Part shown: positions 11,344-48,433 of the stretch, in pieces
Layout: the number at the start of each line of letters is the position of its first letter
Numbering within the stretch: the stretch's first letter is position 1
NCBI GenBank assembly: GCA_027489245.1
Contig: JAIYAC010000010.1
Location: 248,001-312,000 of the forward strand
DNA length: 64,000 nucleotides
Source: Neisseriaceae bacterium
Lineage (GTDB): Bacteria; Pseudomonadota; Gammaproteobacteria; Burkholderiales; Chromobacteriaceae
Direction of reading: 5' to 3'
Notes under the pieces: model-generated
The model's database searches: none
What the model was told of the DNA's origin: nothing
The model's input: the letters and a program-made list of their open reading frames with translations, nothing else
Position numbers and translations under genes: made by a program

Positions 11344-11345
11344 GT

Positions 11346-16483: not shown

Positions 16484-16517
16484 GAATCACTCCCGGCATG
16501 GATGAATGCCTGTCCAT

Positions 16518-21263: not shown

Positions 21264-21402
21264 TAGTCGCTCCAGATAAGAGATAGGTCAGGCGTAGTCG
21301 CTCAGGATCGCGGCTGTTTAAGAGGTGGCCGCTTGGGCCGGCTTGGGCTGTGCCGGATACGCTGCACCGGCCTTCCCGACACAAGACCGGCCAATGGCAC
21401 GC

Positions 21403-22161
21403 TTAGCCAGTGCGTACCATCCGCATGGAGAAGTCTTCGGCGCGCCCGATGATCACGCCATTCAGGGCGCGCCGGATGCCATCCACGCCGATGAACAGGG
21501 TGTGTTTGTCGTTGTGGTGGGCACCACACTGCTTGGTGAACAAGCGATGGTGGCCGTCTTCATGCAGCCAGCTGCCATCCGCTTGAGCTTGGTAGCCGTA
21601 CCCAAGCCAGTTCATGTCATCCAGCCGCACTTGGGCCTCGTGACCGAACAATTCGATGATCTTGCAGTGGAGACCCACCTGGCGCGCATGCCGGATAAAG
21701 GTGGCGGCCTCTTGCTCGCACTTGAGCGGATGGTTGGTGCACAGCTGCAGCGGGTAGTGCTTTGCCCGCTGGATGCTGGTCAGTACTTTATCCAGTGCAA
21801 TGCCCATGCTGGCGTATTGTGCTTTGGCGTCGAAGGAGTCGACATGCACTTTCAGCTCGTCCAGCCAGGGCAGGGCTTTCTCGAGCTGCTCTGGCAGACC
21901 TGCGTGCGAGTTCATCGATACATGGGCGCCGCTGGCTTTGCACAAGCGGGCAATCTCGGCCAGCTGCTTGTGCAGGGTAGGCTCGCCACCGCTAAGCACG
22001 ATTTCTTGCGGTTGGCAGCCATTGGCCTGCAGGGTGTGGAGCACATGGCGAATGACTGCGATCGACAGCAGATTTCCGCTTTGCCCCTGGCCTTCGTTGT
22101 GGCAGTAGCCACAGGTGGCGTTGCAGGCTTTGGTAAGCAGGAAGCGGATTTTCAGACCCAT
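21403..22161 (-). CDS. Radical SAM enzyme of the triad operon
   Basis: 252 residues. The CNATCGYC motif (C13, C17, C20) binds the 4Fe-4S cluster. VLSGGEPTLHKQL is the SAM-binding GGE region. HVSMNSHAGLP and LDELKVHVDSFD are usual barrel strands. There is no SPASM-type C-terminal cluster: only one or two Cys remain near KQCGAHHN, so it is probably a single-cluster enzyme of the MoaA-like type. Its substrate is unknown. It might modify a peptide, nucleotide or the neighbouring proteins. It starts after GAAGGGG and lies between the VWA gene (375-base gap) and the PP2C gene. A CGACAAGTTT half-site sits 66 bases upstream, hinting at its own promoter. Confidence 0.85.
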   Translation of the reverse strand: MGLKIRFLLTKACNATCGYCHNEGQGQSGNLLSIAVIRHVLHTLQANGCQPQEIVLSGGEPTLHKQLAEIARLCKASGAHVSMNSHAGLPEQLEKALPWLDELKVHVDSFDAKAQYASMGIALDKVLTSIQRAKHYPLQLCTNHPLKCEQEAATFIRHARQVGLHCKIIELFGHEAQVRLDDMNWLGYGYQAQADGSWLHEDGHHRLFTKQCGAHHNDKHTLFIGVDGIRRALNGVIIGRAEDFSMRMVRTG

Positions 22162-22536
22162 GGTGTTGCCCCTTCGTGATAAGTTGATGAGGTCAATGGT
22201 AGGGGATGCACCCTGCGCCGGGATTTCGACAAGTTTGCTTCGCGGTGGGGGATTCGCGTATTTCCCGGGTGTGGGTTTACCCGGCGCTCAGCGCGCGCAG
22301 GCAGCGATGCGTGGCTTTTATCCTGCGAAAGCGGACGTGCTTCCGGCTTTGCCGTTAAGACACCCTGCCCGTAAAGGTACGGGCTCAATCAGCGGTGTGG
22401 GTTTGGCATCATCGCGGGTGCTTGTGGCGAGTGAACCCGTTGCGGCGGGTAGCCGGTACCCGTCGCGTGGCTTCATTGTTTGCAGGTGTGGGGCGGTGCG
22501 GGTGCCGACGTTTTGCCCCGGCATGCGCACGCTATG
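22162..22536 (-). promoter_or_regulatory. 375-base gap with possible internal promoter
   Basis: Between the VWA and radical SAM genes. Short ORFs here lack coding character. On the minus strand the half-site CGACAAGTTT (22227-22236) is followed about 24 bases later by TACCAT, a weak -10. It is the only sizeable gap in the operon. Confidence 0.45.
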
Positions 22537-23193
22537 TCAGATGCTTCCCCAGCCATCCATGCTGGGTAGTTGCACCGAGGCGTCGGACGATGTACTGGCA
22601 GACACCCGCGCCATGGATGCCGACAGCCACTGGAACAGCTCGCGGAACTTGAGCCCGTCAAGCGCTACAGCGGGTTTGCTGGAAAACTGCGCGAGCACTT
22701 CCAGGTTGGCGCCTTGTATCCCGATAGGCAGGCTGACCAGTTTGAGCTGGGCCGACAGCGCACGGGCATGCTGCGCGGCATCCTGCCAGGCGTCACTCGG
22801 TGCCCCGTCGCTGATCAGTATCAGCCAAGGCTGGTAGTAGGGCATGCCAGCATCGCGATAGGATTGTTTGCGCGCCTCCAGATCGTCCAAGGCCATGCGT
22901 GTCGCTTGTCCGAGCGGCGTTTCTCCATCGGCATCCAGAGGCGCAAACCCCACAACCTGTTCGATGCCGATAAATGGCTGAATGCAGTCAGCCGCACCGC
23001 CAGCGGTATAGACCGCAATGTCCACCGACCAGCGTGCCAGGTCGTCGCGCTTCACTTCATCGAGGAAGAGCTGGATACCCGCGTTCAATTGCTCGATGGG
23101 TTGGCCGTACATGGAGCCGGAGGTATCGAGCACCAGCGCCACCGGGCAGCGCGGGGTGGGGTTGTCGATGAGGTCGTTGTGCGATTCGTTCAT
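22537..23193 (-). CDS. TerY-like von Willebrand A domain protein
   Basis: 218 residues from ATG 23193 after CAGGAGG; the in-frame start at 23238 is poorer. The metal-ion-dependent adhesion site is complete: D23-T-S-G-S27, T92 (GETPLGQAT) and D129 (LISDGAPSD). The C-terminal tail SMARVSASTSSDASVQLPSM ending in DGWGSI matches TerY-type proteins. Family knowledge: TerY-like VWA proteins bind metals and act with a PP2C phosphatase and a kinase in phosphorylation-controlled stress systems. All three parts of that triad lie here. It follows the kinase gene by 60 bases. Confidence 0.88.
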   Translation of the reverse strand: MNESHNDLIDNPTPRCPVALVLDTSGSMYGQPIEQLNAGIQLFLDEVKRDDLARWSVDIAVYTAGGAADCIQPFIGIEQVVGFAPLDADGETPLGQATRMALDDLEARKQSYRDAGMPYYQPWLILISDGAPSDAWQDAAQHARALSAQLKLVSLPIGIQGANLEVLAQFSSKPAVALDGLKFRELFQWLSASMARVSASTSSDASVQLPSMDGWGSI

Positions 23194-23253
23194 GGCTGCC
23201 TCCTGTGGCGTGTTCCGGGAATGGGTAAAAGCAAACAAGGTGTTCTCCTTGGT

Positions 23254-24261
23254 TCAGGCCGTAGCTGTCGGGGAGAGGGACTGAGCGCCTCGGTATGCCT
23301 TGGACTTGGGCGTGGCCGGCTTGATATGCACGTCATGCCACCCCTTGCAAAGCTCGCGTTTGTACAGCTGGAGCTCGTCGATCCATTCCGCGATGGATGT
23401 ACGCGCAGACACGTCCAGCGCACCGTCCTTGAAAGTCAGGATCAGTCTTTCCTTCAGCTTGAAGGGCAGATGGCTCCAGATGTTGAACCACGGGCCCTTC
23501 GGGATACCGCCGCCACCGACACCATAGGGGAAGTAGCCATTGCGGATGTTTTCCACCGGGCCGGCACCACCGACTACGTCGTAAGGGTGGCGGCCGAGCA
23601 TCAGCGTCTTGAAGAGCAAGATGGCCAACGAAAAGTGCTCGCTTTCCAGTGTCCGGCTGGTCTTGTCCAGTGGTTTGCCTTGCAGCTCAGGCGCCAGCAT
23701 GTCCGGGGCCGCTACCGGGCAGAGAAAAGTGGTGCCCGCCGTGTCGATCTGCCAGCTGTCGCAGTCGATCAGGGTGACGCTGTCGCTACCCGGGTCGCAC
23801 AGAAAGTTGGCCAGGTTGTAATCACCCACCCTGACGCCCGCGGTATGCAGCACGTTCAGCGTGCCGAGCAGGTTCAGCAGGTAGGCCACCACGGCCATAC
23901 GATCCAGATGGGGGAAGTGCTCGCGATAGGCCATCGCATGGGCCAGCACGTTCATCCGCACGCCCGCCGCTTTGCGCATGGCGTAGCCGCGCCACTGGCC
24001 TTGCGCATCGAATACCGCAAAGCAGGGCCAGGCCAGGCCCGGGTGCTGCTTGAAGCGCGAGAGCTTGGGGTCGCTGGTCATGGCGTCGATCTTGATACGC
24101 AGCGCATCGCCCCGCTTTTGCAGCACCTGCGGGTGGTAGAGCTTGACGACCACCCCGGGGAACATGGGGACAGCATGAACCGCCGCCTCGCCGCCTTGAG
24201 CAAGCGGGGTATCGGATAGTTGAACGGCGTCTCCTGCCGCATTGCGAACGGTAAGGCTCAT
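23254..24261 (-). CDS. Divergent Ser/Thr protein kinase of the triad
   Basis: 335 residues; ATG 24261 after CAGGAGA. Kinase-fold signs: GGEAAVHA loop, K40 (VVVKLY) as the likely ATP-binding lysine, a catalytic-loop equivalent VGDYNLANFL (145-154) and a metal-binding IDCDSW (165-170) in place of DFG. An APE-like PDMLAPEL follows. The HRD motif is changed (RVGD), as is usual for kinases in TerY-P systems, so activity is likely but not certain. Its probable partners are the VWA protein and PP2C phosphatase encoded downstream. The effector protein at 24295 comes just before it with a 33-base gap. Confidence 0.85.
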   Translation of the reverse strand: MSLTVRNAAGDAVQLSDTPLAQGGEAAVHAVPMFPGVVVKLYHPQVLQKRGDALRIKIDAMTSDPKLSRFKQHPGLAWPCFAVFDAQGQWRGYAMRKAAGVRMNVLAHAMAYREHFPHLDRMAVVAYLLNLLGTLNVLHTAGVRVGDYNLANFLCDPGSDSVTLIDCDSWQIDTAGTTFLCPVAAPDMLAPELQGKPLDKTSRTLESEHFSLAILLFKTLMLGRHPYDVVGGAGPVENIRNGYFPYGVGGGGIPKGPWFNIWSHLPFKLKERLILTFKDGALDVSARTSIAEWIDELQLYKRELCKGWHDVHIKPATPKSKAYRGAQSLSPTATA

Positions 24262-26811: not shown

Positions 26812-28987
<2,176 letters not shown>

Positions 28988-29116
28988 GATCATCTCTCTC
29001 CATGATGTGTCGTGGTCTCGCCAGCCTTGGCCCGTATCGGGCGTTGCCGGGTTGGGCCGGCTATTTGTGGCGTTGGCTGTGACTGCATTATGCGGAGCGT
29101 CAATCGCGGTTGAAAT

Positions 29117-29146
29117 GTAACTTTCGGGTGTAAATTTGTACTTTTC
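29117..29146 (-). promoter_or_regulatory. Candidate AraC-activator direct repeats before the hydroxylase operon
   Basis: GTAACTTTC (29117) and GTACTTTTC (29138) are 21 bases apart, two helical turns. The nearer repeat abuts a -35-like TTTCAA on the minus strand, as expected for an AraC-type activator. A similar pair occurs at 38264-38293. Confidence 0.5.
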
Positions 29147-29205
29147 ATCGTTTTTTGATCGGGTGGTACACCCAGGAGGCATCGTTCGATACACGGTGAA
29201 AAGCG

Positions 29206-29233
29206 GGCAAAAAAATACCGGCACAAGGCCGGT
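29206..29233 (-). terminator. Rho-independent terminator after hpaI
   Basis: On the minus strand, ACCGGCCTTGTGCCGGT forms a hairpin followed by a run of seven T residues. It separates the hpa operon from the hydroxylase unit. Confidence 0.75.
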
Positions 29234-29331
29234 AAAAAGAGGAAGCACCTGCGAACAACGGCCATCCGTTGTCAGTGACGCTGCCACGGGGAGGCAGCAG
29301 GCAAGCCGGTGCAGATACCGGCCTGCCGGGT

Positions 29332-30135
29332 TCAGTACACGCTGCTGGCTTGCGGCGCTGGCGTGAGCGTATCGCGGTAGCGGGCAGCCAGCGCTTCGGC
29401 GCTGCGTGCCAGCAAGGTGGTATCCACACCCACCGCCACGAATTGCGCCCCCAGCGCAATGTAATGACGGGCCAGCTTCTCATCTGCCATCAGGATGCCG
29501 GGAGCCTTGCCATGGGCGCGGATGCGACGGATGGCATCTTCAATGGCGGCTTGGACTGCCGGGTGCGTCGGCTGACCCAGGTAACCCATGTCGGCAGAAA
29601 GGTCGGCCGGGCCGATGAACACACCATCCACGCCTTCGGTGGCGGCTATCGCATCCAGCGCGGCCAGGCCGGCCCGGGTCTCGATCTGCACCAGTACGCA
29701 GATCTCCTGCTCGCAGGCGTGCAGGTAGTCGGGGATACGGTTCCAGCGCGAGGCCCGAGCCAATGCGCTACCCACACCGCGGATACCGTGCGGCGGGTAA
29801 CGCGTTGCGGCCACAGCTTGTTCGGCTTCGGCGGCGCTTTGCACCATCGGCAGCAGCAGGGTTTGTGCACCGATGTCCAGGATCTGCTTGATGCGCACCG
29901 GGTCGTTCCAGACCGGGCGCACGATCGGGTGGCTAGGGTAGGGGGCAATGGCCTGCAGCTGTGCCAGCATGCCCTGTAGTTCGTTGGGGGCGTGCTCGCC
30001 GTCGATCAGTAGCCAGTCGAAGCCGGCACCGGCCAGCAGTTCGGCACAGTAGGCATCTGCCAGGCCAAGCCACAGGCCAATCTGGACCTCGCCGGCCTTC
30101 AGCGCGGCCTTGAAGCGGTTGTGCGGGTTTTGCAT
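29332..30135 (-). CDS. hpaI: 4-hydroxy-2-oxoheptanedioate aldolase
   Basis: 267 residues, usual length for the metal-dependent (class II-type) HpcH/HpaI aldolases. Motifs: [24 protein letters not shown]-like [13 protein letters not shown] (metal-ligand Glu) and [17 protein letters not shown]. It splits 4-hydroxy-2-oxoheptanedioate into pyruvate and succinate semialdehyde, the last step of homoprotocatechuate meta-cleavage. The neighbouring dehydrogenase then oxidises the semialdehyde. Twelve bases after hpaH. Confidence 0.93.
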
Positions 30136-30147
30136 CGTGGTCTCCTG

Positions 30148-30951
30148 CTAGACAAAGCGGCAGCTGATGGCACCCAGCGGGCCGTAATCCACATGAAAGG
30201 TATCCCCCGGTCGTGCGGCCACCGGGCGGGTAAACGAGCCGCCCAGAATCACTTGGCCCGGTTTCAGGCTAACGTCGAACGGGGCCAGCTTGTTGGCCAG
30301 CCAGGCCACCCCGTTGGCAGGGTGGTTCAGTACGGCTGCTGCCACACCGGATTCCTCGATCACGCCATTGCGGTACATCAGGGCCGAAACCCAGCGCAGG
30401 TCCAGTTCGGACGGCCGGATGGGGCGGCCGCCCATGACCACGCCGGCGTTGGCCGCATTGTCGGAAATGGTGTCGAACACCTTGCGGGGGCGGCCGCTGG
30501 CCGGGTCGATGGACTGGCTGCGGGCATCGATGATTTCCAGTGCCGGAATCACGTACTCGGTGGCGTTGTAGACGTCGAACAGGGTGATGTTCGGGCCTTT
30601 CAGTTCCTTGCCCAGAATGAAAGCCAGCTCCACCTCGACGCGCGGTACGATGAAGCGGCTGGTGGGGATATCGGCTCCGTCGTTGAAGAACATGTCGTCC
30701 AGCAAGGTGCCGTAATCCGGCTCGTCAATTTGCGACGACATCTGCATGGCACGGGAAGTCAGCCCGATTTTGTGGCCTTTCACTACGCGGCCTTCGGCCA
30801 GTTTCATGTCCACCCAGCAGCGCTGGATGGCGTAGGCGTCCTCGATGGTGATGTCCGGGTACTCGAGCGAGATCTGGCGAATCTGCTGGCGCTCCTGCTC
30901 GGCCTGGTGCAAGCGGCGGGCAGTCTGTTCGATGATGTCTTGGCTAAGCAT
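30148..30951 (-). CDS. hpaH: 2-oxo-hept-4-ene-1,7-dioate hydratase
   Basis: 267 residues of the hydratase/decarboxylase (MhpD-like) family: [29 protein letters not shown] and [19 protein letters not shown]. It adds water to 2-oxo-hept-4-ene-1,7-dioate, giving the substrate of HpaI. The gene order HpaH-HpaI is as in enterobacterial hpa clusters. It follows the semialdehyde dehydrogenase gene by 38 bases. Confidence 0.93.
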
Positions 30952-34123: not shown

Positions 34124-34972
34124 TTACACGGGAAGGATGACGTTGATCTGGCCGGTGCCGGAGCTGCCGAAATAGGGGGTTACCACCTCGGCCTTGCCAC
34201 GGTATTCGTCCCAGCCCAGCGCGCCCAGCAGCATGGCGGTGTCGTGCATGAAGCCTTCACCGTGGCCCTTGTCGGCGTACTCCGGCAGCATGGCGCAGAA
34301 GGTTTTCCAGTCACCGCGTTGCCACATTTCCACCACTTCGTGGTCCAGGGTTTCCAGGAACGGGCTCCACACCTTGTGCAGGTACTGGTCGGCCACGCCG
34401 TTCTGGGCAAAACGGTGCGACAGCGAGCCGCTGGCCAAGATGGCGACGGTGCCGTCGTACTGTTCTTCGATGGCACGGCGCATGGCGGCGCCCAGCGTGG
34501 CGCTGTCTTGCAGGTTGTGCACGGTACACAGCGCAGAAACGGATACCACTTTGAAATGCTGGTCTTCGTTCATGTAGCGCATCGGTACCAGCGTGCCGTA
34601 CTCCAGTGCCAGTGTGGTGTTGTCGTGGGCGCGGGTGTGCACGCCGGCCACAGTGGCCGCATCGGCCAGCAGGCGGCCCAGCACCGGGTTGCCCTGGTAT
34701 TCGTAGGGCATGTTCTTGATGAAGTGCGGCAGCTCGTTGCTGGTGTAGATGCCGGCAAAGTGCGCGGCCGAATTGATGTGATAGCCGGAGTTCACCAGCC
34801 AGTGGGTATCGAACACGACAATGGTGTCCACGCCCAGCTCACGGCAACGGCGGCCGATTTCCTTGTGACCATCGATGGCGGCCTGACGGCAGCCCTTGTG
34901 CGGCCCGTCCAGCTCGGACAGGTACATGGATGGTACGTGGGTGATCTTGGCGGCAAGCGCAAGTTTGCCCAT
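34124..34972 (-). CDS. hpaD: 3,4-dihydroxyphenylacetate 2,3-dioxygenase (homoprotocatechuate dioxygenase)
   Basis: 282 residues, LigB-type extradiol dioxygenase as in enterobacterial HpaD. FDTHWLVNSGYHINSAAHFA and LPHFIKNMPYEYQGNP hold the His ligands and substrate pocket. It opens the ring of 3,4-dihydroxyphenylacetate with oxygen and non-haem iron. Between hpaE and hpaF on the same strand, with an 87-base gap before it. Confidence 0.93.
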   Translation of the reverse strand: MGKLALAAKITHVPSMYLSELDGPHKGCRQAAIDGHKEIGRRCRELGVDTIVVFDTHWLVNSGYHINSAAHFAGIYTSNELPHFIKNMPYEYQGNPVLGRLLADAATVAGVHTRAHDNTTLALEYGTLVPMRYMNEDQHFKVVSVSALCTVHNLQDSATLGAAMRRAIEEQYDGTVAILASGSLSHRFAQNGVADQYLHKVWSPFLETLDHEVVEMWQRGDWKTFCAMLPEYADKGHGEGFMHDTAMLLGALGWDEYRGKAEVVTPYFGSSGTGQINVILPV

Positions 34973-35059
34973 GGTGGTCTCCTCGATTCTCTGTAAACGT
35001 TGGCGGTGGGGTGGTTAAGTCTTGTGGTGATGGCCAGGCGGAGGCCTGGCCATCACGGC

Positions 35060-36520
35060 TTATACGCCCCAGCGCGGGATGTGGTGGCTGCCCATCGAGA
35101 CGCAGACATTCTTGATTTCGGTAAACACTTCAAAGCTGTAGGCACCGCCTTCGCGGCCGGTACCCGACGCTTTTACGCCGCCAAACGGCTGACGCAGGTC
35201 GCGGACGTTCTGGCTGTTGATGAATACCATGCCGGCTTCGATGCCACGGGCCAGACGATGAGCCTTGCCGATGTCCTGGGTCCAGATGTACGACGCCAGG
35301 CCGTATTCCACGTCATTGGCCAGTCGCAGCGCTTCGGCTTCGTCCTTGAATTTCAGCAGGCAGACCACCGGGCCGAAGATTTCTTCCTGGGCAATGCGCA
35401 TGCGGTTGTCCACGTCGGCAAACACGGTCGGCTGGATGAAGTGGCCGTTTTGCAGATGGGGTGCAAGGTTGGCCGGACGCTCGAGACCACCGGCCAGCAA
35501 GGTCGCGCCTTCTTCCATACCGATACGGATGTAACCGGTGACCTTGTCGTAGTGTGCTTTGGTAATCATGGAGCCGACCTGGGTTTTCGGGTCTTGCGGG
35601 TCACCCACGATCAGGTTGCGGGCACGACGGGCAAATTCGGCGACGAATTCGTCGTACACCCCTTCCTGGATGAAGATGCGGCTGCCGGCAGTGCAGCGTT
35701 CACCGTTGAGCGAGAAGATAGTGAACAGGGCAGCATCCAGCGCACGCTCCAGATCAGCATCGTTGAAAATCAGCACCGGGCTCTTGCCGCCGAGCTCCAT
35801 CGAATATTTCTTGATGCCAGCACTCTGCATAATGCGGCGGCCGGTAGCGGTGCCGCCGGTAAACGACACGGCACGCACGTCCGGGTGGCGTACCAGCGCG
35901 TCGCCGGCATTGGCACCGTAGCCCTGTACCACGTTGAACACGCCTTCCGGAATGCCGGCTTCCATCGCCAGGCGGCCCAGCTCGTTGGCGGTCAGTGGCG
36001 ACAGCTCCGACATTTTCAGTACTGCGGTGTTGCCCAGTGCCAGGCAGGGTGCGGTTTTCCAGGTGGCCGTCATGAACGGTACGTTCCACGGCGAGACCAG
36101 ACCGCAAACGCCTACCGGCTGGTACAGCGTGTAGTTCAGCATGCTGTCGTCCACCGGGTAGGTGTGGCCGTCCATGCGGGTGCATACCTCGGCGAAGAAG
36201 TCGAAGTTGTGCGAGGCGCGCGGAATCAGCACGTTTTTGGTCTGGTGGATGGGCAGGCCGGTATCCTGGGTTTCCAGCTCGGCCAGACGCGGTACGTTCT
36301 GGTCGATCAGTTCGCCCAGACGGCGCATCAGGCGCGCACGCTCTTTGGCCGGGGTGTTGGACCAGGCCGGGAAGGCGGCCTTGGCCGCAGCGACCGCCGC
36401 GTTGATCTCGTCGGCACCACCGCTGGCGACTTCGCAGATGGCCTCGCCGGTGGCTGGGTTGAAGTTGGTGAAGGTGTCCTTGCTTTCGACTTCGCGGCCG
36501 TTAATCCAGTGCTTGATCAT
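35060..36520 (-). CDS. hpaE: 5-carboxymethyl-2-hydroxymuconate semialdehyde dehydrogenase
   Basis: 486 residues from ATG 36520 after AAGGAAG; an upstream in-frame start (36580) lies in hpaG2. Aldehyde dehydrogenase with catalytic Cys (LNGERCTAGSRIF) and Glu (YSMELGGKSPVLIF). The QNVRDLRQPFGGVKASGTGR end is typical of HpaE. It oxidises the ring-cleavage semialdehyde with NAD+. Operon neighbours confirm the role. Confidence 0.93.
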   Translation of the reverse strand: MIKHWINGREVESKDTFTNFNPATGEAICEVASGGADEINAAVAAAKAAFPAWSNTPAKERARLMRRLGELIDQNVPRLAELETQDTGLPIHQTKNVLIPRASHNFDFFAEVCTRMDGHTYPVDDSMLNYTLYQPVGVCGLVSPWNVPFMTATWKTAPCLALGNTAVLKMSELSPLTANELGRLAMEAGIPEGVFNVVQGYGANAGDALVRHPDVRAVSFTGGTATGRRIMQSAGIKKYSMELGGKSPVLIFNDADLERALDAALFTIFSLNGERCTAGSRIFIQEGVYDEFVAEFARRARNLIVGDPQDPKTQVGSMITKAHYDKVTGYIRIGMEEGATLLAGGLERPANLAPHLQNGHFIQPTVFADVDNRMRIAQEEIFGPVVCLLKFKDEAEALRLANDVEYGLASYIWTQDIGKAHRLARGIEAGMVFINSQNVRDLRQPFGGVKASGTGREGGAYSFEVFTEIKNVCVSMGSHHIPRWGV

Positions 36521-36576
36521 GATGTCTTCCTTGGCTGTGCGGCGCTGCCGCACCGCTGAATCGGGGTTGTTGCGGC

Positions 36577-37341
36577 TCAACGGCCTCGCAGGTTTTCGTA
36601 TTCGCTCTCACTGACGATGCGGTTGACCAGGCGGCCTACGCCTTCCACTTCCACCACCACTTCGTCACCGGGTACGACATCTGCCAGCCCTTCCGGCGTG
36701 CCGGTGGCAATCATGTCGCCGGGCGACAGTGTCATGAAGCTGCTCAGGTATTCGATGAGGAAAGGAATGTCGAACACCATGTCGCGGGTGTTGCCCTGTT
36801 GGGTCAGCTTGCCGTTAACCCAGGTGCGTAGCGTCAGGTTGGCCGGGTCTGCCACGTCAGCCTTGTCTACCCACCACGGCCCGATCGGTGTCAGCGTGTC
36901 GCGGTTTTTCACGCGCAGGTTGGGGCGGTAGTAGTTTTCGAGGAAGTCGCGTACGGCGTAGTCATTGCAGACGCTGTAGCCAGCCACGTAGTCCATGGCG
37001 TGTTCGCGCGAGACGTGTCGCGCGGTCTTGCCGATGATGACCACCAGTTCGCACTCGTAATGCATGTAAGCCACGTTGTCCGGGCGTACCGACACTTGCT
37101 GGTGGCCGGTGAGGGTGCTGGGCGACTTCAGGAATACCAGCGGTTCGGTGGGTGCCTTGAAGGCCAGCTCGGCCGCATGGTCGGCATAGTTCAGGCCCAG
37201 GGCAAACACGGTGCCCTGCGCCGGGGGCAGCCAGGTGACGTCGTCTGCCGACAGGCGCTGGCCGTTGACGGTAACGCTGTGATCCTCGTTGACCATGACG
37301 TTGTGTGTCTGGCCCTGGTAGCGGATGCGGGCGTGTTTCAT
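36577..37341 (-). CDS. hpaG2: 4-HPA degradation isomerase/decarboxylase, C-terminal subunit
   Basis: 254 residues, equivalent to the C-terminal half of fused HpaG/HpcE (FAH superfamily). Motifs: FALGLNYADHAAELAFKAP, MHYECELVVIIGKTARHVS, DMIATGTPEGLADVVPGDEV. It contains the EXE-type metal ligands around YECEL. It decarboxylates or isomerises 5-oxo-pent-3-ene-1,2,5-tricarboxylate. Its start overlaps the hpaG1 stop (37338-37341). Confidence 0.9.
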   Translation of the reverse strand: MKHARIRYQGQTHNVMVNEDHSVTVNGQRLSADDVTWLPPAQGTVFALGLNYADHAAELAFKAPTEPLVFLKSPSTLTGHQQVSVRPDNVAYMHYECELVVIIGKTARHVSREHAMDYVAGYSVCNDYAVRDFLENYYRPNLRVKNRDTLTPIGPWWVDKADVADPANLTLRTWVNGKLTQQGNTRDMVFDIPFLIEYLSSFMTLSPGDMIATGTPEGLADVVPGDEVVVEVEGVGRLVNRIVSESEYENLRGR

Positions 37342-38102
37342 CGTGCGGCCTCCTCTGCGATAACGGGGTTTTCCAGGCGGCCGATGCCTTCAATGGCAAC
37401 GGTCACGGTGTCACCGGCTTGCAGGTCCACGCTGCGCAGCGGCGTGCCGGCAATCAGCAGGTCACCGGGCTCCAGGGTCATGAAGCTGGAGATGTCGGCA
37501 ATCAGCTGCGGTACGCTGCGGACGAGATCGGCGCAGCGGTTAGTTTCGCGCAGGGTGCCGTTAACGTAGGTTTCCACCACCAGCGTTTGCGGGTCGACCC
37601 GGCGGGCATCGATCAGCCACGGCCCGATAGGGCAGAAACTATCACGACATTTGGCCTTGACCGCGGGGCGATAGAAGCTGTCTTCCGGTTGGCTGACCTC
37701 GTTTACCACGGTGTAGGCGGCGATATAAGCCAGCGCTTGCTCGGCACTGACTTTGCGCGCGGTCTTGCCGATGACGATGCCCAGTGCACCGCCGGCCTGG
37801 ATGCGGTCAACGCCCGCCGGAAACAGGATGGGGGCGCCGTGGCCGATCTGTGTGTTGCTGGTCTTGATGAACAGCACCGGGGCCTGGGGCGCGGCTTTGT
37901 AGGGGGCATCCTCAAAGGCTCCGGCCAGCGACTCGATCAGCGAGCGATGATTGAGCGCTGCGCCGTAGACGGTACCGGTGACCGGTGCCAGCCATTGCGG
38001 GCTTTCCATTAACGGGTTGCCGTTATCTAGCAACAGGTTGCCGTCTGCTTGCAGCGTCACGTCGCGAACCTGTCGATTAAGCAAAATGCGTCCACGCGCC
38101 AT
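37338..38102 (-). CDS. hpaG1: 4-HPA degradation isomerase/decarboxylase, N-terminal subunit
   Basis: 254 residues, equal to the N-terminal half of HpaG/HpcE: VYGAALNHRSLIESLAGAF, FIKTSNTQIGHGAPILFP, EDSFYRPAVKAKCRDSFCP. First gene of the meta-cleavage operon, ATG 38102 after CAGGAGGAG. The two halves, which form one chain in E. coli, are separate overlapping genes here. A strong promoter and probable HpaR operator lie upstream. Confidence 0.9.
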   Translation of the reverse strand: MARGRILLNRQVRDVTLQADGNLLLDNGNPLMESPQWLAPVTGTVYGAALNHRSLIESLAGAFEDAPYKAAPQAPVLFIKTSNTQIGHGAPILFPAGVDRIQAGGALGIVIGKTARKVSAEQALAYIAAYTVVNEVSQPEDSFYRPAVKAKCRDSFCPIGPWLIDARRVDPQTLVVETYVNGTLRETNRCADLVRSVPQLIADISSFMTLEPGDLLIAGTPLRSVDLQAGDTVTVAIEGIGRLENPVIAEEAAR

Positions 38103-38293: not shown

Positions 38294-38348
38294 GCAAGTG
38301 CCACCGCTTTGAGTGCGCTGTTATCCACCCCCTTACCAGGAGAAATTG

Positions 38349-38801
38349 ATGTCTACACCTTGCGATGCATCCAGTCTGGCGTATGTTTGCCGGTCGCTCA
38401 CCACTGCTGCCGCGTTGCAGGCAGTCGAAGCCGCCGTGGCGCATGGGCGTCAGTTGGGCGTGAGGGTCAATGCTGCCGTGGTGGACCGCAGTGGGGTCCT
38501 ACTGGCCTTTCTGCGTTGCGAGGAAGCGCCGCTGCATTCAGTAGAAATCGCGATGGACAAAGCCTATACCGCAGCAAGCTTCGGCATGGCGACCGAGCAG
38601 TGGGCCACCCGGCTGGCCGAGCGCACTGATGCTGTCCGGGCCGGCCTCTACGGCCGGCCACGCTTTGCCGGCTTTGGTGGCGGCGTGCCTATCCTGATGG
38701 GGGGCGAACGCATCGGAGCCATCGGGGTGTCCGGTGCCAGCGAGGCGCAGGACGTGGCCTGCGCCGCTGCCGGTCTGGCGGCCATTGGCGTGGGGGTATG
38801 A
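38349..38801 (+). CDS. GlcG/HbpS-family protein (DUF336)
   Basis: 150 residues from ATG 38349 after AGGAG; the upstream frame start (38313) is not supported. Pattern of the HbpS/GlcG family: VNAAVVDRSGVLLAFLRCEE, SVEIAMDKAYTAASFGM and GGGVPILMGGERIGAIGVSG. Such proteins occur with aromatic-acid and glycolate genes. Haem binding has been shown for some, but the role is not well known. Its stop overlaps hpaA by 4 bases. Confidence 0.85.
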   Translation: MSTPCDASSLAYVCRSLTTAAALQAVEAAVAHGRQLGVRVNAAVVDRSGVLLAFLRCEEAPLHSVEIAMDKAYTAASFGMATEQWATRLAERTDAVRAGLYGRPRFAGFGGGVPILMGGERIGAIGVSGASEAQDVACAAAGLAAIGVGV

Positions 38802-39748
38802 CCGTGGCGCGTGAACGCAGCCCTATCCCTAATATCGATATCGGCAAGGAGTACGACAGCCCCTATGCCGCTGCCGAGGTGTCCTACGAGCGGTTTGGCA
38901 AGCTGGCGGCGTTCTTTGGCCGCAATATGCCGGTGCATCGTCACGACCGGTTTTTTCAGGTGCATTATCTCGCCAGCGGCCAGATACGGCTGTATCTGGA
39001 GGAGGCGCAATACATCGCCCGGGCGCCGCTGTTTTTTCTGACGCCGCCGACCGTACCGCATGCCTTCATTACCGAAGAAGATGCCGACGGGCACGTGCTG
39101 ACGGTACGGCAAGAGCTGGTGTGGCAACTGCTTGCCACCTTGCCCCGACAGGAAACCGAACTGCGGCTGATGACGCCATTCTGTGTCGAGCTGGGCAATG
39201 TGCCCGAGGCGCTGGACGCCGAGGCAGCGCGTTTACCGCAGCTGTTTGCCTTGCTGGCGGCGGAATTCACGGCGGCGGCGGCCGGGCGCGAGCTGGCGCT
39301 GCAAGGGTTGACGCAGCTGTTGCTGATCAGCTTGCTCCGTCTGGCCAGCGAAGCCGGCGACAAGCAGCATTTCCGCCGCGAAGACCTGCACATCTACCAT
39401 CGTTTCAACGCCCTGATCGAGCAGCACTACCGCGAACACTGGGCCCTGTGGCGTTACGCCGAGCAGATCGGTGTCACCGAAGCCCGGCTCAACGACATCT
39501 GCCGCCGTTTGGCTGACTTGCCATCCAAACGGCTGGTGCACGATAGGCTGTTGCAGGAAGCCAAACGCTTGCTGATTTTTTCCGGCAGTTCGATCAACGA
39601 AATTGCTTACCACCTAGGCTTCAAGGATCCGGCGTATTTTTCGCGTTTTTTTCTGCGCGACACCGGGCGCAGCCCCAGCGATTACCGTACGGCCAACCTG
39701 CAGGCCGAGTCGCTGCCGCCGCCGATTCGATTTGCCGATTCCGGATAG
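38798..39748 (+). CDS. hpaA: AraC-family activator of 4-HPA catabolism (HpaA-like)
   Basis: 316 residues: N-terminal cupin-type sensor ([40 protein letters not shown]) and C-terminal double helix-turn-helix ([20 protein letters not shown]). Similar to HpaA, which activates 4-HPA hydroxylase genes with 4-HPA. Divergent to the hpa operon and coupled to the GlcG-like gene. Predicted to bind the GTACTTTTC repeats at 29117-29146 and 38264-38293. Confidence 0.87.
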
Positions 39749-39803
39749 CCCCTGTTGCGTCGGCGCACAGATACTGCATCGCCCCACCTCAAGGAGTGAT
39801 GCC

Positions 39804-41498
39804 ATGCTGTCTGTTTTTCACCGAGCCTGGCGACGGCCCGATACCGCGCGCCTGTTGCCGCTTGCCGACGCTTCACCGCCGTCTTCGTCTGCCGGAGACG
39901 TGTCGCCAGCCGTGGATGACCTGCCGGTTGTCCGCTTGCTGCACACGGTGACGGCCATGCAGCACGGCATGGTGCGTGGCCTGGATGCCCAGCGGCAGTT
40001 GGCCGCAGAAATAGAAGTCCGCAGCAGCCGCATGCAATCGGCCCTGAACCAGTCGGCCGCCCAGGTGCAGCAAAGTGCCAGCATCGCCGATGGCCTGCGC
40101 CAGGCACTGGCCGCCGAAGTGGCGCAGGTAGCCGGTGATATCCGGCGCGAGTTGGCCGCCGCCGTTGCGCTGATTGATCACAAGGCCGCGCAGGCGCTGG
40201 GGGTGATCGAGGAAACCAGCGACATCGCCAAGATGGTGAACCTGCTGGCGCTGAATGCAGCTATCGAGGCTGCCAGGGCGGGGGAACAGGGCCGCGGCTT
40301 TGCTGTGGTGGCGGATGAAGTCCGCCGTCTGGCACAGCGCACGCTGGAAAGCTCGGCGCTGGCCATGCAGCATATGGATCTGGGTGAGGTGCAACAGCAG
40401 GTTGCCGCACTGGTCAGCGCCAGCGATGCCAAGCTGGCGGCGCTGATCGACCGGCTGGGCATACGGCTGGGCGACATGGCGCAATTATTTGATGCGCTGG
40501 GCAGCAATATGCAGGGGCTGAGTGATACCAACCGGCTGGTGACCGAAGCAGCGCCGCAGGTGGCCCAGCGTGCCGCGCTGCTACTAGGCCATGCCGAGCG
40601 GGCTGCTGGCATGGCCGATAGTCTGGCTATGGCCTTGCCATTGCCCGTGGTCCAGCGCCAGCAGGCGGTGCAGCAGTTGTTGCGCCAGCAGCAGTTGCCG
40701 TTGCAGGCCGCCTATGATCGGCTGGCTGATATCCGTGCCCGTGGGGTACTGCGTGTGGCGGTGGAACCGGCCTTTACCGGACTGTCTTTTCGCTTGCGCG
40801 ATGGCCAGGCGCTACAGGGGCTGGATATCGATTACGCCACGGCTTTTGCCGGTTGGCTTGGGGTGCGGGTGCAGTTTGTCGAGCACAGCTGGGATCAGTG
40901 CCCGGATTTGCTGCACTTTGGCCGGCAACCGGGCGAGCCGCTGGCCGATCTGATCTGGAGTGCCATGCCTGCCGGCATTGCACTGCCGGGTTTGTGGTTA
41001 TCGCAGCCGTACTGCACCACGCCCTTCGTGCTGGTACGCCGCACCGGCGATAGCCGCATCCGCAGCCTGGACGACCTGGACGGCAAGGTGCTGGGCGTGG
41101 GCAATGACCCGAGTGCCCTGGCGGCACTGCAGGCTGCCGGAGTGCGCTGGCAGGCAAACCGAGACGTGCCTGGCGGTCGCGTGCAGCTGGCCAACCTGTT
41201 GCTGTATTCTGATCAGCGGCGCATTCATGCCGCGGTGGCGGAGGGCAGTGTCGATGCCTTTGCTGTGGAGCGCACCATTTTCCACTGGGCGGCAGTGGAT
41301 GCGGCCAGCCCGTGGAGGGGGCGCCTCGATATCTTGCCTACCCCGCTGACACCCACACCGTGGCATTACTGTGTTGCTGTGGCTGCGCTGGCGGAAAACA
41401 CCGACTTGCTGCAGGCCGTCAACACCTTCCTGGGCGACTTTCTGCCCGGTGGGCGACGTGCTGCCATCGAGCAGCGCTGGCAGGGCGGTGCGGTGTAA
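39804..41498 (+). CDS. Soluble chemoreceptor-like protein with C-terminal solute-binding domain
   Basis: 564 residues from ATG 39804 after CAAGGAG. Residues ~40-250 are coiled-coil with the MCP hairpin motif ([40 protein letters not shown]). The remainder from ~310 is an amino-acid-type periplasmic binding fold (SBP_bac_3: [53 protein letters not shown]). No membrane segment or signal peptide is seen. The order is opposite to usual chemoreceptors, where the sensor is N-terminal and periplasmic. It probably senses a small molecule in the cytoplasm. Followed by two terminators. The neighbouring catabolic genes suggest aromatic or amine ligands, but this is inference. Confidence 0.8.
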
Positions 41499-41510
41499 TG
41501 TCTCTCCCAT

Positions 41511-41565
41511 GGCCCGGCGTTTGCCGGGCCGTTTCTCCTTTGGGCGCCCAATGGGCGCTTTTTTT
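41511..41565 (+). terminator. Two tandem terminator hairpins
   Basis: GGCCCGGCGTTTGCCGGGCC at 41511-41530, then GCGCCCAATGGGCGC at 41543-41557 followed by eight T. Both lie after the chemoreceptor gene. Confidence 0.75.
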
Positions 41566-41720: not shown

Positions 41721-42665
41721 TCAGGCGAGGGCGCGGCTGCGGGTTTCTGATGGCAGCTCGTCAAACAGCTTTCGATAGTCACGCGAAAAATGACCCAGAT
41801 GGTAAAAGCCCCAGTGGCCGGCGGCTTCACGCACGCTGTTCTGCGCCGGTGCCGCCTGCAGCATGCGGCGCACGCTGTTCAGGCGTATGGAACGCAGGTA
41901 ATCCACCGGCGTGGTGCCGGTGATTAGCTGGAAGCTGTTTTGCAGCGTGCGGCGGCTGATACGCAGCTGCTGGCACAGGTCCAGCACGGTGACCGGCTCG
42001 TCCGGGCTGTGCTGCACGATGGCTTGGCTGCGGCGCACGATGTCGCTGTGTGTGGCGTAGGTGAGGTTGGGCCGTTCATCCGGGGCGACGTCGTGCAGCA
42101 GGTCCAGTAGCAGGCTGATGAACTGATGCTGGATCAGCTTCTGACTACCAGCAAAGTTCAACAGGTCGGCATTGTGCAATGCCTGCTCGAAGGCATTCAG
42201 CAGCAGTACCCGCGCTGCCTGTAGCTGCTGAGGGCTGGTTTGTAGCACCGGCAGGCGCTGCCGGTGACGGCTCAGCCGTTGCCAGAGCTCGGGCGCCAGG
42301 GTTTCCAAGTCGCTGTTGCGGATGGATATCTGCAGGGAGTCCACCTGCGGTGGCACGTGGAAAACAAATTCTTCATTGCTGCGCAAGGCCATCACCGCGT
42401 TGTCGCCTACCTGGCATCCTTGCAGCGATAGTGGCACCGAGAGGCTTAGTGGCACAGCAAAGTGCACCATGTCTGCCGGAGCTTGGCCATGCTGCACCAC
42501 GCGCTGGTTGATGGTTTCCCGGAAGATATCCAGCTGGTCGGTATTCAGCCGCTGTAGCGAGCTGTGAAAGCGTCCGGCTGTGATCTGGTCGTAGACCTGG
42601 TTCCAGTCGGCCAGTGACGCAGCATGCTGCTGGGCATCGCTGAAATAGTGGTGGTGGGCCTGCAT
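41721..42665 (-). CDS. AraC-family regulator
   Basis: 314 residues from ATG 42665 after ACAGGATG. The C-terminal AraC-type HTH is clear (VTVLDLCQQLRISRRTLQ, TPVDYLRSIRLNSVRRML). The N-terminal ~170 residues form a cupin-like sensor similar to EutR-type regulators. It is divergent from the aldehyde dehydrogenase gene and probably controls it and the following transaminase. A 14-bp palindrome (GTTTGTCGACAAAC) lies 116 bases upstream. Confidence 0.85.
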   Translation of the reverse strand: MQAHHHYFSDAQQHAASLADWNQVYDQITAGRFHSSLQRLNTDQLDIFRETINQRVVQHGQAPADMVHFAVPLSLSVPLSLQGCQVGDNAVMALRSNEEFVFHVPPQVDSLQISIRNSDLETLAPELWQRLSRHRQRLPVLQTSPQQLQAARVLLLNAFEQALHNADLLNFAGSQKLIQHQFISLLLDLLHDVAPDERPNLTYATHSDIVRRSQAIVQHSPDEPVTVLDLCQQLRISRRTLQNSFQLITGTTPVDYLRSIRLNSVRRMLQAAPAQNSVREAAGHWGFYHLGHFSRDYRKLFDELPSETRSRALA

Positions 42666-43163
42666 GGTGTGAACATCCTGTGTGTCTGTTTCGGCAGCAG
42701 TGCTGTCGTTTTTCTGGTTTTGCCACCTGTGTTCAGGTAGGAGGCGACTGCTTGCCGGCCCGGTTCTCCCCGGTGTTGCCGTTTGTCGACAAACCAGTAT
42801 CCCGTAGCGACTGCGCCTCGTCACCGTGAAAGCCGTGGTGCGATGAAAAAAATAGTTAATATATTATCTATTTGCTTGTCAGACAGTGTGCAAGCCAATT
42901 GCCGAAAGGCTTGATGACGATGTCAGCAGTGTGACAGCGGCGCGACAGTTGGCCGCGCAGGGGACTGGAAACCCTGATGCCAAGGCCATTTTGGGCTAGG
43001 TGCAGGGTTTGCCGATTTGGGATAAGCGGCGGTAAATGCACCGAGTACATTGATATACGTCAAGGCCGCGCTGGATACCTGGCGAGGGTGCAGGATGCAC
43101 CACCGCGCGATGCGGCCAACCCGTGATAACGGGGTTGCGTCAATTTCAATGAGGAGAACGAGG
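42666..43163. promoter_or_regulatory. Divergent control region between AraC regulator and dehydrogenase
   Basis: About 500 bases without gene. It contains the perfect palindrome GTTTGTCGACAAAC (42781-42794) and an AT-rich TAGTTAATATATTA (42853-42866), similar to the proposed HpaR site at 38165. Promoter elements could not be fixed with confidence. Confidence 0.5.
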
Positions 43164-44663
43164 ATGGATCAGAACCTGGTACCCGTGCTGGACGAGGTGA
43201 ATGCCTTCCTGCGCAAGGAGCATGGGCTGTTGGTGGATGGGGCATCGATTGCCGCTGCGGCAGGTGGCCGTATCGAGGTACGCAACCCGGCAACCGGGCA
43301 GGTCATTGCCAGCGTGGCTGATGCCGATGCTGCCGATGTGGATGCCGTGGTGGCCAGTGCCCATCGCGCCTTTACCTCTGGTGCCTGGTCGGGCCTGCGT
43401 CCTGCCGACCGCGAACGTATCCTGCTCAAGCTGGCCGATGTGCTGGAAGCGCACGCCGAAGAGCTGGCGCAGCTGGAAACCCTGAACCAGGGCAAGTCCA
43501 TTCATATCTCCCGCGCCATCGAGGTAGGGGCCGCCATCGAATACGTACGTTACATGGCCGGTTGGGCGACCAAGATCACCGGCGAAACCATGGACGTGTC
43601 GATTCCAGTGCCGCAGGGTGCCCGTTACACCGCCTACACCCGCCGTGAGCCGGTGGGCGTGGTGGCCGGCATCGTGCCGTGGAATTTCCCGCTGATGATT
43701 GCCATCTGGAAGCTGATTCCCGCCCTGGCCGCTGGCTGCACCATCGTGTTGAAACCTTCCACAGAAACCCCGCTGACCGCCTTGCGCCTGGGGGAGCTGG
43801 CGCTGGAAGCTGGCATTCCGCCAGGTGTGGTCAACGTGTTGACCGGTCGGGGCAGCCGTGCAGGTCAGGCACTGGCTAGCCACCCGCTGGTGAGCAAAGT
43901 GACCTTTACCGGCTCCACGGAAGTCGGCAAGACCGTCGGCCATGCCGCACTGGACAACATGGCGCGCTTCTCGCTGGAGCTGGGTGGCAAGAACCCGATG
44001 CTGGTATTTGGCGATGTGGATGTGGACAAAGCCATCCAGGGCGCAATGATGGGCGGCTTCCTCAATCAGGGGCAGGTCTGTGCTGCTGCCTCGCGCATTT
44101 ACATCCACCGCAGCAAGTTTGACCAGGTAGTGGAAGGGTTGGCCGCCGCCGCCAGCGGCATGACTATCGGTGCCGGTATGGACCTGAATGCCCAGATCAA
44201 CCCGCTGGTATCCGCCCGCCAGCAACAGTCGGTGTGCCGCTACATCGATATTGCCCGCGCAGAAGGGGCGCGGGTACTGTCCGGTGGCCAGGCTGCCGAC
44301 CTGCCCGGTTACTTCGTGCAGCCGACCGTGCTGAGCAACGTCGATCACCGCAGTACCGTGGTGCGCGAGGAAATCTTCGGGCCGGTACTGGTTGCCATGC
44401 CGTTCGACAGCATGGAAGAAGCCGTACATCTGGCCAACGACACGCCTTATGGCCTGGCCGCAAGCGTCTGGAGCAATGACCTGTCGCTGGTGATGAACGT
44501 GGTGCCAAAAATCCAGGCCGGTACTGTCTGGGTCAACAGCCACATTCCGCTGGACCCGAATATGCCGTTCGGTGGCCACAAACAGTCCGGAGTTGGCCGC
44601 GAATTCGGCCGTGCCGCGCTGGAGAGCTTTACCGAGCTCAAGTCGGTGTGCATCGCCCACTAA
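43164..44663 (+). CDS. feaB: Phenylacetaldehyde-type dehydrogenase (NAD+)
   Basis: 499 residues from ATG 43164 after AGGAGAACGAGG; the in-frame start at 43050 is unlikely. Aldehyde dehydrogenase with catalytic Cys in NQGQVCAAASRIY and Glu in RFSLELGGKNPML. Closest in pattern to FeaB/PadA-type enzymes for (4-hydroxy)phenylacetaldehyde, which would yield (4-hydroxy)phenylacetate and feed the hpa operon. Followed by a transaminase on the same strand. A betaine- or gamma-aminobutyraldehyde-type substrate cannot be excluded. Confidence 0.8.
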   Translation: MDQNLVPVLDEVNAFLRKEHGLLVDGASIAAAAGGRIEVRNPATGQVIASVADADAADVDAVVASAHRAFTSGAWSGLRPADRERILLKLADVLEAHAEELAQLETLNQGKSIHISRAIEVGAAIEYVRYMAGWATKITGETMDVSIPVPQGARYTAYTRREPVGVVAGIVPWNFPLMIAIWKLIPALAAGCTIVLKPSTETPLTALRLGELALEAGIPPGVVNVLTGRGSRAGQALASHPLVSKVTFTGSTEVGKTVGHAALDNMARFSLELGGKNPMLVFGDVDVDKAIQGAMMGGFLNQGQVCAAASRIYIHRSKFDQVVEGLAAAASGMTIGAGMDLNAQINPLVSARQQQSVCRYIDIARAEGARVLSGGQAADLPGYFVQPTVLSNVDHRSTVVREEIFGPVLVAMPFDSMEEAVHLANDTPYGLAASVWSNDLSLVMNVVPKIQAGTVWVNSHIPLDPNMPFGGHKQSGVGREFGRAALESFTELKSVCIAH

Positions 44664-46921: not shown

Positions 46922-48433
46922 ATGAGCATTCAGCAGAAACTGAGTCGCTACCTCGATCAGGGGGTGGTGGGCTTTCCGGTGGCACTGGCCAGTTCGGTCG
47001 GCGTCATCATGGCCAGTCCGGTGATCCTGACCGCAACCAGCGGTTTTGGCATCGGTGGCAGCACCTTTGCCCTGGCCATGGTGATTGCCTGGGTGATGAT
47101 GCAGGCGCAGGCCACTACCTTTTCAGAAGCAGCTTCCATGTTGCCGACTTCGGGTGCGGTATACGACTATATCTCCTGTGGCATGGGTCGTTTTTTTGCC
47201 ATTACCGGCACCATTTCGGCCTATTTACTGGTACATGTGTTTGCCGGTACGGCCGAGACCATTCTTTCCGGGGTCATGGCGCTGGTGAATTTCGAGCACC
47301 TGAACACCATGATGGAAAGCAGTGGATATTCATGGCTGGTGGGGGTAGGGCTGGTGATCTTGTTTGGCGTGCTTAATTCACTAGGAATCACCATCTTCGG
47401 CAAGGCCGAAATCATCCTGACCTTCGTGATGTGGGCCACGCTGACTATCTTCGGTGTCATCGGCCTGATGAAAGCGCCAGCGGTGCATTTTGACGGCTGG
47501 TTCGGCAGCCCGCTGGACCTGTCTGACCCCACTGGTGTGCTGAGTCTGATCGGCATGGCCATGTTCATGTTTGTCGGTTTCGAGCTGGTGACACCGCTGG
47601 CGCCAGAGCTGAAACGTGCCAGCCGCAATATTCCGCTGGCCGCCAAGCTGGGTCTGACCGGCGTGGCCAGCACCATGTTCTTGTATGGTGCTGCCATGGT
47701 GCATCAGGTGGCCAACGTGCCGATGGACCCGAATAACCCGCAAGGCCCGCACCTGCTGGATACCCCGATGGCCATTCCGGCGTTTGCCGAGCAAGTCATG
47801 GGCCCGTTCGGCAAGATCTGGCTGGGTATCGGCTTACTGTTTGCCGGTGCCGCCACCATCAACACGCTGATCGCCGCCTTGCCGCGCATCTTGTACGGCA
47901 TGGCGCTAGATGGTGCCTTGCCGCGTGCCTTCACCTACCTGCATCCGCGCTTCAAGACCCCGCTCGTGGGCATTCTGGTGGCAGTCATCATCCCGTGTGC
48001 CCACGCCTGGTACATCCAGGGCAACCTGGACCGCATTATGCCGTTGGTACTTGCTGCCGTATGTGCCTGGGGTGTGGCCTATCTACTGGTGAACATCTCG
48101 GTGGTGATGTTGCGTATCCGCCGTCCGGACTTCCCGCGCGCCTACCGTTCGCCATGGTTCCCGTTGCCGCAAATCGTGTCCAGTGTCGGCATCATCATCG
48201 CCATCTGGTTCATTACCCCGCCAGGTATGGATAGCCGCGACATTTACGTACCCTTTGGTGTGATGCTGGGTCTGACGGCGCTATACGCCCTGGTGTGGAC
48301 CGTGTTTGTGCAGAAGGTTAACCCTTTCCGCCCGGTAGAAATCGAAGTCTTGCTGGAAGAAGAGTTCGGCAAGGCGGCCGGCCATGAGTCGCTGATTGAT
48401 GAGGAAATGAAGCGTGTGGCCTCGCTGGGCTGA
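46922..48433 (+). CDS. APC-family amino acid or amine permease
   Basis: 503 residues, start ATG 46922 after AAAGGAG. About 12 membrane helices, with the APC signature around ASPVILTATSGFGIGGSTFA and VGFELVTPLAPELKRASRNI. It imports an amino acid or amine, likely the substrate of the nearby transaminase. Followed directly by a DUF3156-like gene that overlaps its end by 20 bases. Confidence 0.87.
   Translation: MSIQQKLSRYLDQGVVGFPVALASSVGVIMASPVILTATSGFGIGGSTFALAMVIAWVMMQAQATTFSEAASMLPTSGAVYDYISCGMGRFFAITGTISAYLLVHVFAGTAETILSGVMALVNFEHLNTMMESSGYSWLVGVGLVILFGVLNSLGITIFGKAEIILTFVMWATLTIFGVIGLMKAPAVHFDGWFGSPLDLSDPTGVLSLIGMAMFMFVGFELVTPLAPELKRASRNIPLAAKLGLTGVASTMFLYGAAMVHQVANVPMDPNNPQGPHLLDTPMAIPAFAEQVMGPFGKIWLGIGLLFAGAATINTLIAALPRILYGMALDGALPRAFTYLHPRFKTPLVGILVAVIIPCAHAWYIQGNLDRIMPLVLAAVCAWGVAYLLVNISVVMLRIRRPDFPRAYRSPWFPLPQIVSSVGIIIAIWFITPPGMDSRDIYVPFGVMLGLTALYALVWTVFVQKVNPFRPVEIEVLLEEEFGKAAGHESLIDEEMKRVASLG

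Follow-up and report, generated by a model that had tools for sequence, protein, structure and literature searches.

What might a chemoreceptor that appears to lie wholly inside the cell sense with a solute-binding domain at its C-terminal end? Most chemoreceptors have no known ligand, and for metabolism-dependent taxis a named sensor is often missing. We analyzed a 64,000-nucleotide stretch of a Neisseriaceae bacterium of the Chromobacteriaceae, hereafter the window, and established the architecture, family, gene context and residue changes of the receptor that it encodes. The receptor gene runs from ATG to stop at 39804..41498 (+) and encodes 564 residues. A ribosome-binding-like AAGGAG, read from the sequence, lies at 39791..39796 (+), 7 bases 5' of the ATG. 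A sequence scan placed two terminator-like hairpins 3' of the gene at 41509..41560 (+), and these are weak because eight such hairpins were found in the region against 5.6 expected by chance.

The first-pass annotation had described an N-terminal MCP hairpin followed by an SBP_bac_3 domain, and both the coordinates and the domain order were correct, given the open reading frame and two Pfam matches above the gathering score. MCPsignal (PF00015) matched residues 103-210 (40110..40433, +) at E 7e-21, with 75.3 bits against a gathering cut-off of 34.6, and SBP_bac_3 (PF00497) matched residues 316-561 at E 1.9e-11, with 44.3 bits against a cut-off of 26.4. No Cache model, dCache_1 included, was among the Pfam matches. 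We looked for an overlooked membrane segment or a sign of secretion by hydropathy (Kyte-Doolittle, 19-residue windows) and found neither in the receptor: no window reached 1.6, the maximum mean being 1.42 at residue 117 in the coiled coil, and residues 1-45 lacked a hydrophobic core and hence a signal peptide by this measure. A secreted solute-binding domain was ruled out on the same ground, that hydropathy gave no export signal. The canonical methylation-site consensus, applied strictly, gave no match in the receptor, and there were two loose matches. The receptor's own genome, which is 88% complete, gave 44 matches to the protein, namely the receptor itself, 41 through the MCP half and two through the SBP half; apart from the receptor, none of the 27 SBP_bac_3 matches in this genome lies in an open frame longer than 356 residues.

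The full-length AlphaFold model, built from a 60-row alignment, had a mean pLDDT of 85.8, with residues 1-33 at low confidence. The model, Pfam and Foldseek place a helical hairpin at residues 40-277 (39921..40634, +), with helices at 40-158, 160-189 and 194-277. A helix break at residues 190-193 (HMDL; 40371..40382, +) is seen in the model and the alignment, D192 being present in 51/60 members. Beyond a linker helix in the model (residues 282-295; 40647..40688, +), the C-terminal part is a two-lobed alpha/beta domain that the model and structure comparison identify as a type II periplasmic-binding fold (residues 302-564; 40707..41495, +). Compared with VIA-align, this part gave a Z of 22.8 against AncCDT-1 (rmsd 2.3 over 223 aligned residues) and a Z of 20.7 against LAO (1lst). 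Modelled alone, the hairpin had a mean pLDDT of 88.2 and a pTM of 0.52, and Foldseek returned ten matches from the PDB at E<=0.001, all of them chemoreceptors, among them Tsr (1qu7) and receptors from Thermotoga; their query TM-scores were low (0.29-0.50). Since both ends of an MCP hairpin share one end of the bundle, the C-terminal sensor is placed where a HAMP or sensor domain normally feeds in. The order of the domains is inverted, as had been noted at first pass, but the model suggests that the inversion is topologically mild and that the geometry need not be inverted at all.

The relatives of the receptor make up a conserved and widespread family of soluble MCP-SBP proteins, which the first-pass annotation overlooked. 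A scan of 84,980 species genomes with two short peptide patterns retrieved 80 of 83 relatives, and because such patterns were used the counts of relatives are lower bounds. The 80 loci come mostly from Pseudomonadota and include Thalassospira, Methylobacterium, Methylorubrum, Methylovorus, Methylophaga, Zoogloea, Stutzerimonas, Nitrincola, Marinomonas, Dongia and others. Counting similar architectures, a check that had been proposed at first pass, gave an N-terminal MCP match in 88 of the 89 target ORFs across the 80 loci. The exception, L106 from Methylobacterium symbioticum, is a fragment with only a 195-residue open stretch of the C-terminal domain, reflecting either gene breakage or misassembly. 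The receptor also occurs in L063 and L072, two MAGs that bear the label Candidatus Kuenenia (Planctomycetota), which may reflect transfer or a binning error. The 60-row alignment was drawn from 64 non-redundant sequences, five of which were left out, with the window protein added; the hairpin was aligned in 38 of these rows, and L015 (genome G047), a broken or misassembled receptor copy, was excluded from the alignments. All 60 aligned members, the window protein included, matched both Pfam models at E 0.001, which rules out chance or an annotation artefact, and the relatives recovered by the genome scan rule out a lone oddity of the receptor's own genome. Three pairs of loci (L022/L039, L025/L061 and L026/L080) each open with an identical receptor protein sequence, so that some rows from different collections probably represent the same organism.

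Hydropathy screening of 69 of the 89 ORFs gave no export signal or membrane segment in 67; of the two others, L039 owes its signal to a coiled coil and L072 has a questionable TTG start. Together with the result for the receptor itself, this supports the earlier proposal of sensing inside the cell. Nine loci, eight from Thalassospira and one from a Rhodospirillales MAG (L036, L044, L045, L046, L049, L051, L053, L078 and L096), carry two receptor copies in tandem, diverged and 46-53% identical to the window domain; no methylamine genes were found near these nine. Within the host family, the C-terminal part was matched in 10/61 genomes at E 1e-10, comprising four full receptors (the receptor's own genome included), the broken copy in G047 and five lone SBPs in frames of 265-277 residues. 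In the phylum set, where up to five candidates per genome were scored, 7/398 genomes, again with its own included, gave a match at E 1e-20.

We examined the genes around the receptor for an indication of its ligand. The receptor ATG lies 55 bases 3' of the stop codon of hpaA (38798..39748, +; TIGR02297, 409 bits), which encodes an AraC-type regulator of 4-hydroxyphenylacetate catabolism and is preceded by a gene for an HbpS-like protein (38313..38801, +; PF03928). On the other side lie a gene for an EutR-like AraC-type regulator (41721..42824, -; 155 bits, below the EutR cut-off of 319), an aldehyde dehydrogenase gene whose nearest match is the phenylacetaldehyde dehydrogenase StyD (43164..44663, +; 708 bits, below the cut-off of 850), an aminotransferase gene of subfamily NF005683 (44758..46089, +; 827 bits, cut-off 575) and a gene for an amino acid transporter-like permease (46922..48433, +; matches below curated cut-offs). 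Model matches identified hpaD, hpaE, hpaG2 and hpaG1 at 34127..38102 (-), and model matches with the ORF list placed the 4-HPA 3-hydroxylase reductase and oxygenase, an ORF at 29335-30135 and hpaH at 26815..30951 (-). No CheA, CheW or ABC transporter was found among the annotated receptor neighbours in the window. Vogesella aquatica (L029), G059 (L113) and Pseudogulbenkiania (L030) largely share the gene order of this cluster. Four extra genes, absent from the window, stand between the receptor and the EutR-like gene in L029 and L030, and a search of L030 for the aminotransferase gave no match. In the 16 genomes of two genera, the receptor and hpaA were jointly present in five and jointly absent in 11, both being present in 3/13 genomes of the window's genus and 2/3 of the Pseudogulbenkiania genus; one of the five receptors (G047) is broken. 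In two other genera, 14 genomes carry hpaA but no receptor. An hpaA relative at G059:C1:1775048-1775965 has one in-frame TAG in the matched stretch.

Elsewhere in the window, a type III-B CRISPR-Cas locus at 7156-17633 (-) and 19178-20119 (-) includes Cmr1, Cas10/Cmr2, Cmr3, Cmr4, Cmr6, Cas1 and a CARF protein. An N-terminal Csx16 is fused in a Csx16-CARF-Card1-like nuclease (7156-8694) and in Csx16-Cas6 (8694-9839), and to find Csx16 joined to an effector as well as to Cas6 seems unusual. Genes for PP2C phosphatase, radical SAM and VWA proteins are close together beside this locus at 20400-24261 (-), and the ORF at 23257-24261 (-) next to them had no Pfam match.

The informative gene context of the relatives, which the first-pass annotation had not seen, points to methylated amines, with the window clade as the exception. 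References from L054, L057, L065, L083, L091, L105 and the window were searched against all 80 loci, source loci included. By a loose test, which took matches to GMAS, MgsA/B/C, MgdC/D, Tmm, Tdm or DmmA at >=35% identity over half of the query within 10 kb, 18/80 loci were linked (L035, L037, L040, L041, L050, L052, L054, L055, L056, L057, L060, L070, L079, L083, L091, L097, L101 and L105). With stricter markers (GMAS at 60%, MgsC at 70%, or Tmm, Tdm or DmmA), linkage was retained in 12/80 (L035, L040, L050, L054, L055, L056, L057, L070, L079, L083, L091 and L097). By rough arithmetic, less than 1% would be expected to be linked if each 20-kb stretch came from a 4.5-Mb genome with a single such cluster. 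The linked loci are spread over several separate branches of the tree, in which L058, with its PII-like match and XRE-type regulator only, was also marked as methylamine-linked; neighbouring rows are not independent. A clustering of the neighbourhoods was dominated by near-identical Thalassospira loci. L037, L052, L060 and L101, which have only MgdC/MgdD-like matches, could carry sarcosine oxidase instead. No methylated-amine marker was found by the loose test in 62/80 loci, including all Thalassospira and all Methylobacterium/Methylorubrum, some of these contigs being short. An XRE-type regulator alone was found in L043, the same regulator with a PII-like match in L058, L062, L066, L067, L068 and L069 (L066 and L069 also with a PurU-like match), and a PII-like match in L065; most of these marker-poor loci stop about 2 kb from the receptor or less.

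The names GMAS, Mgs, Mgd, Dmm and PurU were assigned by this analysis and not by curated models. When proteins were scanned, curated models for type III glutamate-ammonia ligase, trimethylamine monooxygenase and TMAO demethylase scored above their cut-offs, the latter two both in L057. The sarcosine-oxidase alpha- and beta-family models, the glutamate synthase large subunit model (for MgsC) and the ammonium transporter model scored below theirs, and no curated model matched MgsA, DmmA or the XRE-type protein at E 1e-30. In the phylum set, MgsC was found in 43/398 genomes and in all six receptor genomes other than the receptor's own (G068, G088, G218, G250, G307 and G421, of which G307 and G421 belong to one genus). 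The hypergeometric P for this co-occurrence was 1.2e-6 by genome and 4e-5 by genus, values that are inflated by shared ancestry and lifestyle. The same MgsC query gave no match in the 61 genomes of Chromobacteriaceae, the five with the receptor included. No recurring ABC transporter was noted in the 42 of 80 neighbourhoods read by eye.

We mapped the pocket by profile alignment to AncQR, with a one-residue gap and with AncQR numbered as in PMC5431781. According to that source, R83 and T78 of AncQR (R77 and S72 of LAO) hold the carboxyl and amino groups of the ligand, D167/D161 hold its amino group, E17/D11 its side chain, and F58/F52 form a hydrophobic wall (PMC5431781). The equivalents in the window protein are E321 for E17, F324 for F20, W363 for F58, A393 for R83 and E489 for D167, so that the carboxylate-clamp Arg is replaced by A393 (or by L394, given the one-residue gap). 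Across the family, the acid at 321 (57 E and 3 D), F324 (57/60), W363 (60/60) and the acid at 489 (57 D and 3 E) are kept; W363 and the acid at 489 are not peculiar to the family, as 16/26 and 13/26 control SBPs, the other SBP_bac_3 proteins of the same genome, have them. Arg at 393 is present in 7/60 family members against 21/26 of these controls. The seven form one clade (SH-aLRT 95), and three of them (L037, L052 and L060) are among the loci linked to methylated amines. In LAO the R77L change weakened lysine binding about threefold and D161I did so about twentyfold (PMC4917951), so amino-acid binding may survive the loss of the Arg. In amine-binding dCache domains, according to PMC10104139, the Arg is not conserved and an Asp and aromatic residues are kept. 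By analogy with those domains, the loss of the clamp Arg together with the retention of the ammonium-holding acid and the aromatic walls suggests that the ligand of the receptor family is likely an amine. The first-pass proposal of an aromatic or amine metabolite thus gains partial support from gene context and predicted pocket residues.

At 13 well-conserved positions within residues 60-564, the three sequences from Chromobacteriaceae depart from the other 57; four of these positions are in the hairpin (138, 142, 200 and 266) and nine in the domain (362, 384, 390, 406, 433, 476, 478, 489 and 543). Residues 362, 390, 406, 433, 476 and 489 each have one letter in 51-57 of the 57 others, and all six are changed in the window clade; of the 13 positions, only 489 mapped onto a known ligand contact. 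A C-terminal tail of more than 20 residues, present in the other 57, is absent from the three. These changes may retune the pocket, and we would guess that Gly at 433 accommodates a larger aromatic ligand.

The pocket and the gene context also bear on other explanations. The ligand might be a carboxylic metabolite, such as 4-hydroxyphenylacetate in the window or gamma-glutamylmethylamide or N-methylglutamate in the methylamine branch. Genes for such metabolites adjoin the receptor, amino acids are the predicted ligands of SBP_bac_3-type transport SBPs (PMC9602780), and seven members keep the Arg. The clamp Arg is absent from the other 53 of the 60, however, the window protein among them, and the family has Pro at 389 (58/60) and at 390 (57/60; Ala or Ser in the window clade) where 14/26 controls have Thr at 390. 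We regard a carboxylic ligand as unlikely, though it is the strongest of the alternatives. It is more doubtful still that the hairpin serves no motility receptor and feeds a non-flagellar CheA system, or that the protein is an MCP-like regulator of a catabolic operon. The position of the gene between two regulators would suit such a role, as would the lack of CheA and CheW among its annotated neighbours and the fact that its genome encodes four CheA dimerisation domains, the closest of them at a distance of about 90 kb on the receptor's contig; against it, the hairpin tip is well conserved in the alignment (N151 in 59/60, E155 in 53/60 and G160 in 59/60).

Least probable, in our judgment, is that the SBP domain has degenerated into a spacer or dimerisation module that binds nothing, with the receptor answering to array state or redox. 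Conserved residues of the domain are indeed altered in the window clade, but conservation is higher in the domain than in the hairpin, identity to the window protein being 42-76% (9 rows) for the former against 21-74% (37 rows) for the latter, with 51 versus 27 in L023 and 53 versus 28 in L027. The acid at 321, Phe 324, Trp 363 and the acid at 489 are moreover kept in 57-60 of the 60 members.

The explanation that we prefer, in which we place an even measure of belief and doubt, is a family of cytosolic amine chemoreceptors whose Chromobacteriaceae branch has been retuned towards an aromatic amine (tyramine, for example) or its product. The N-terminal MCP hairpin would join receptor arrays and contact CheW and CheA, and the Venus-flytrap domain at the outer end of the bundle would close on an intracellular amine, passing the ligand-induced change through the C-terminal arm of the hairpin. 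The cell would then steer by compounds that it has already taken up. Ligand class, array membership and the direction of the response are what we infer for the receptor. The family as a whole would most likely read methylated amines or a close product. In Chromobacteriaceae the aromatic amine/4-hydroxyphenylacetate cluster would have taken up the gene, whose domain would then differ in specificity, the ligand there being most likely an aromatic amine, for example tyramine, or its aldehyde or acid product; an aromatic amine is a plausible ligand in this genome.

The receptor can be compared with several known systems. The cytoplasmic (topology IV) receptor MtpA of Methylobacterium aquaticum 22A likewise has no membrane segment and a metabolism-linked role, in its case formaldehyde sensing, but it is reported to have MCPsignal only, with no sensor domain detected (PMC10613068), while SBP_bac_3 is present in 60/60 members of the receptor family. 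On that description alone, the reported domain content of MtpA does not fit the same protein. The dCache_1AM amine receptors PacA, McpX and PctD, as presented in PMC10104139, resemble the family in that an amino-acid sensor became an amine sensor with the Arg unconserved and the Asp and aromatic residues kept; they use a dCache domain, whereas the family uses a cytosolic, C-terminal type II periplasmic-binding fold. The SBP_bac_3 amino-acid binders AncQR, LAO, AncCDT-1 and cyclohexadienyl dehydratase have the fold and several pocket positions in common with the receptor, but the carboxylate clamp of the amino-acid binders is missing in most family members; with cyclohexadienyl dehydratase the similarity is in sequence and fold only. 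Unlike SBP_bac_3 amino-acid transport proteins, the receptor has no export signal by hydropathy and no ABC transporter among its annotated neighbours, and it is fused to an MCP hairpin. The Venus-flytrap sensors BvgS (with its family) and CdgH also have an SBP-type domain fused to a signalling module, but that domain is periplasmic, whereas that of the receptor is predicted to be cytosolic. Literature searches for the MCP-SBP architecture and for methylamine or aromatic-amine receptors turned up no description of this architecture in the titles, abstracts and passages covered, which lie mostly outside subscription journals.

The receptor family provides a concrete soluble candidate sensor with a predicted ligand class. 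Its hosts include the cultivable Stutzerimonas, Vogesella and Methylorubrum, and the receptor would supply sensor design with a cytosolic domain that binds amines. Methylated and aromatic amines would form a natural specificity pair that a small set of residues may separate. More tentatively, we propose a class of cytosolic Venus-flytrap chemoreceptors for the internal amine pool, with a methylated-amine branch in Pseudomonadota and an aromatic-amine branch in Chromobacteriaceae, where a few pocket residues would have been retuned and the gene moved to a new cluster. If this is true, two unrelated folds, one on each side of the membrane, would have evolved amine sensing separately by losing the carboxylate clamp.
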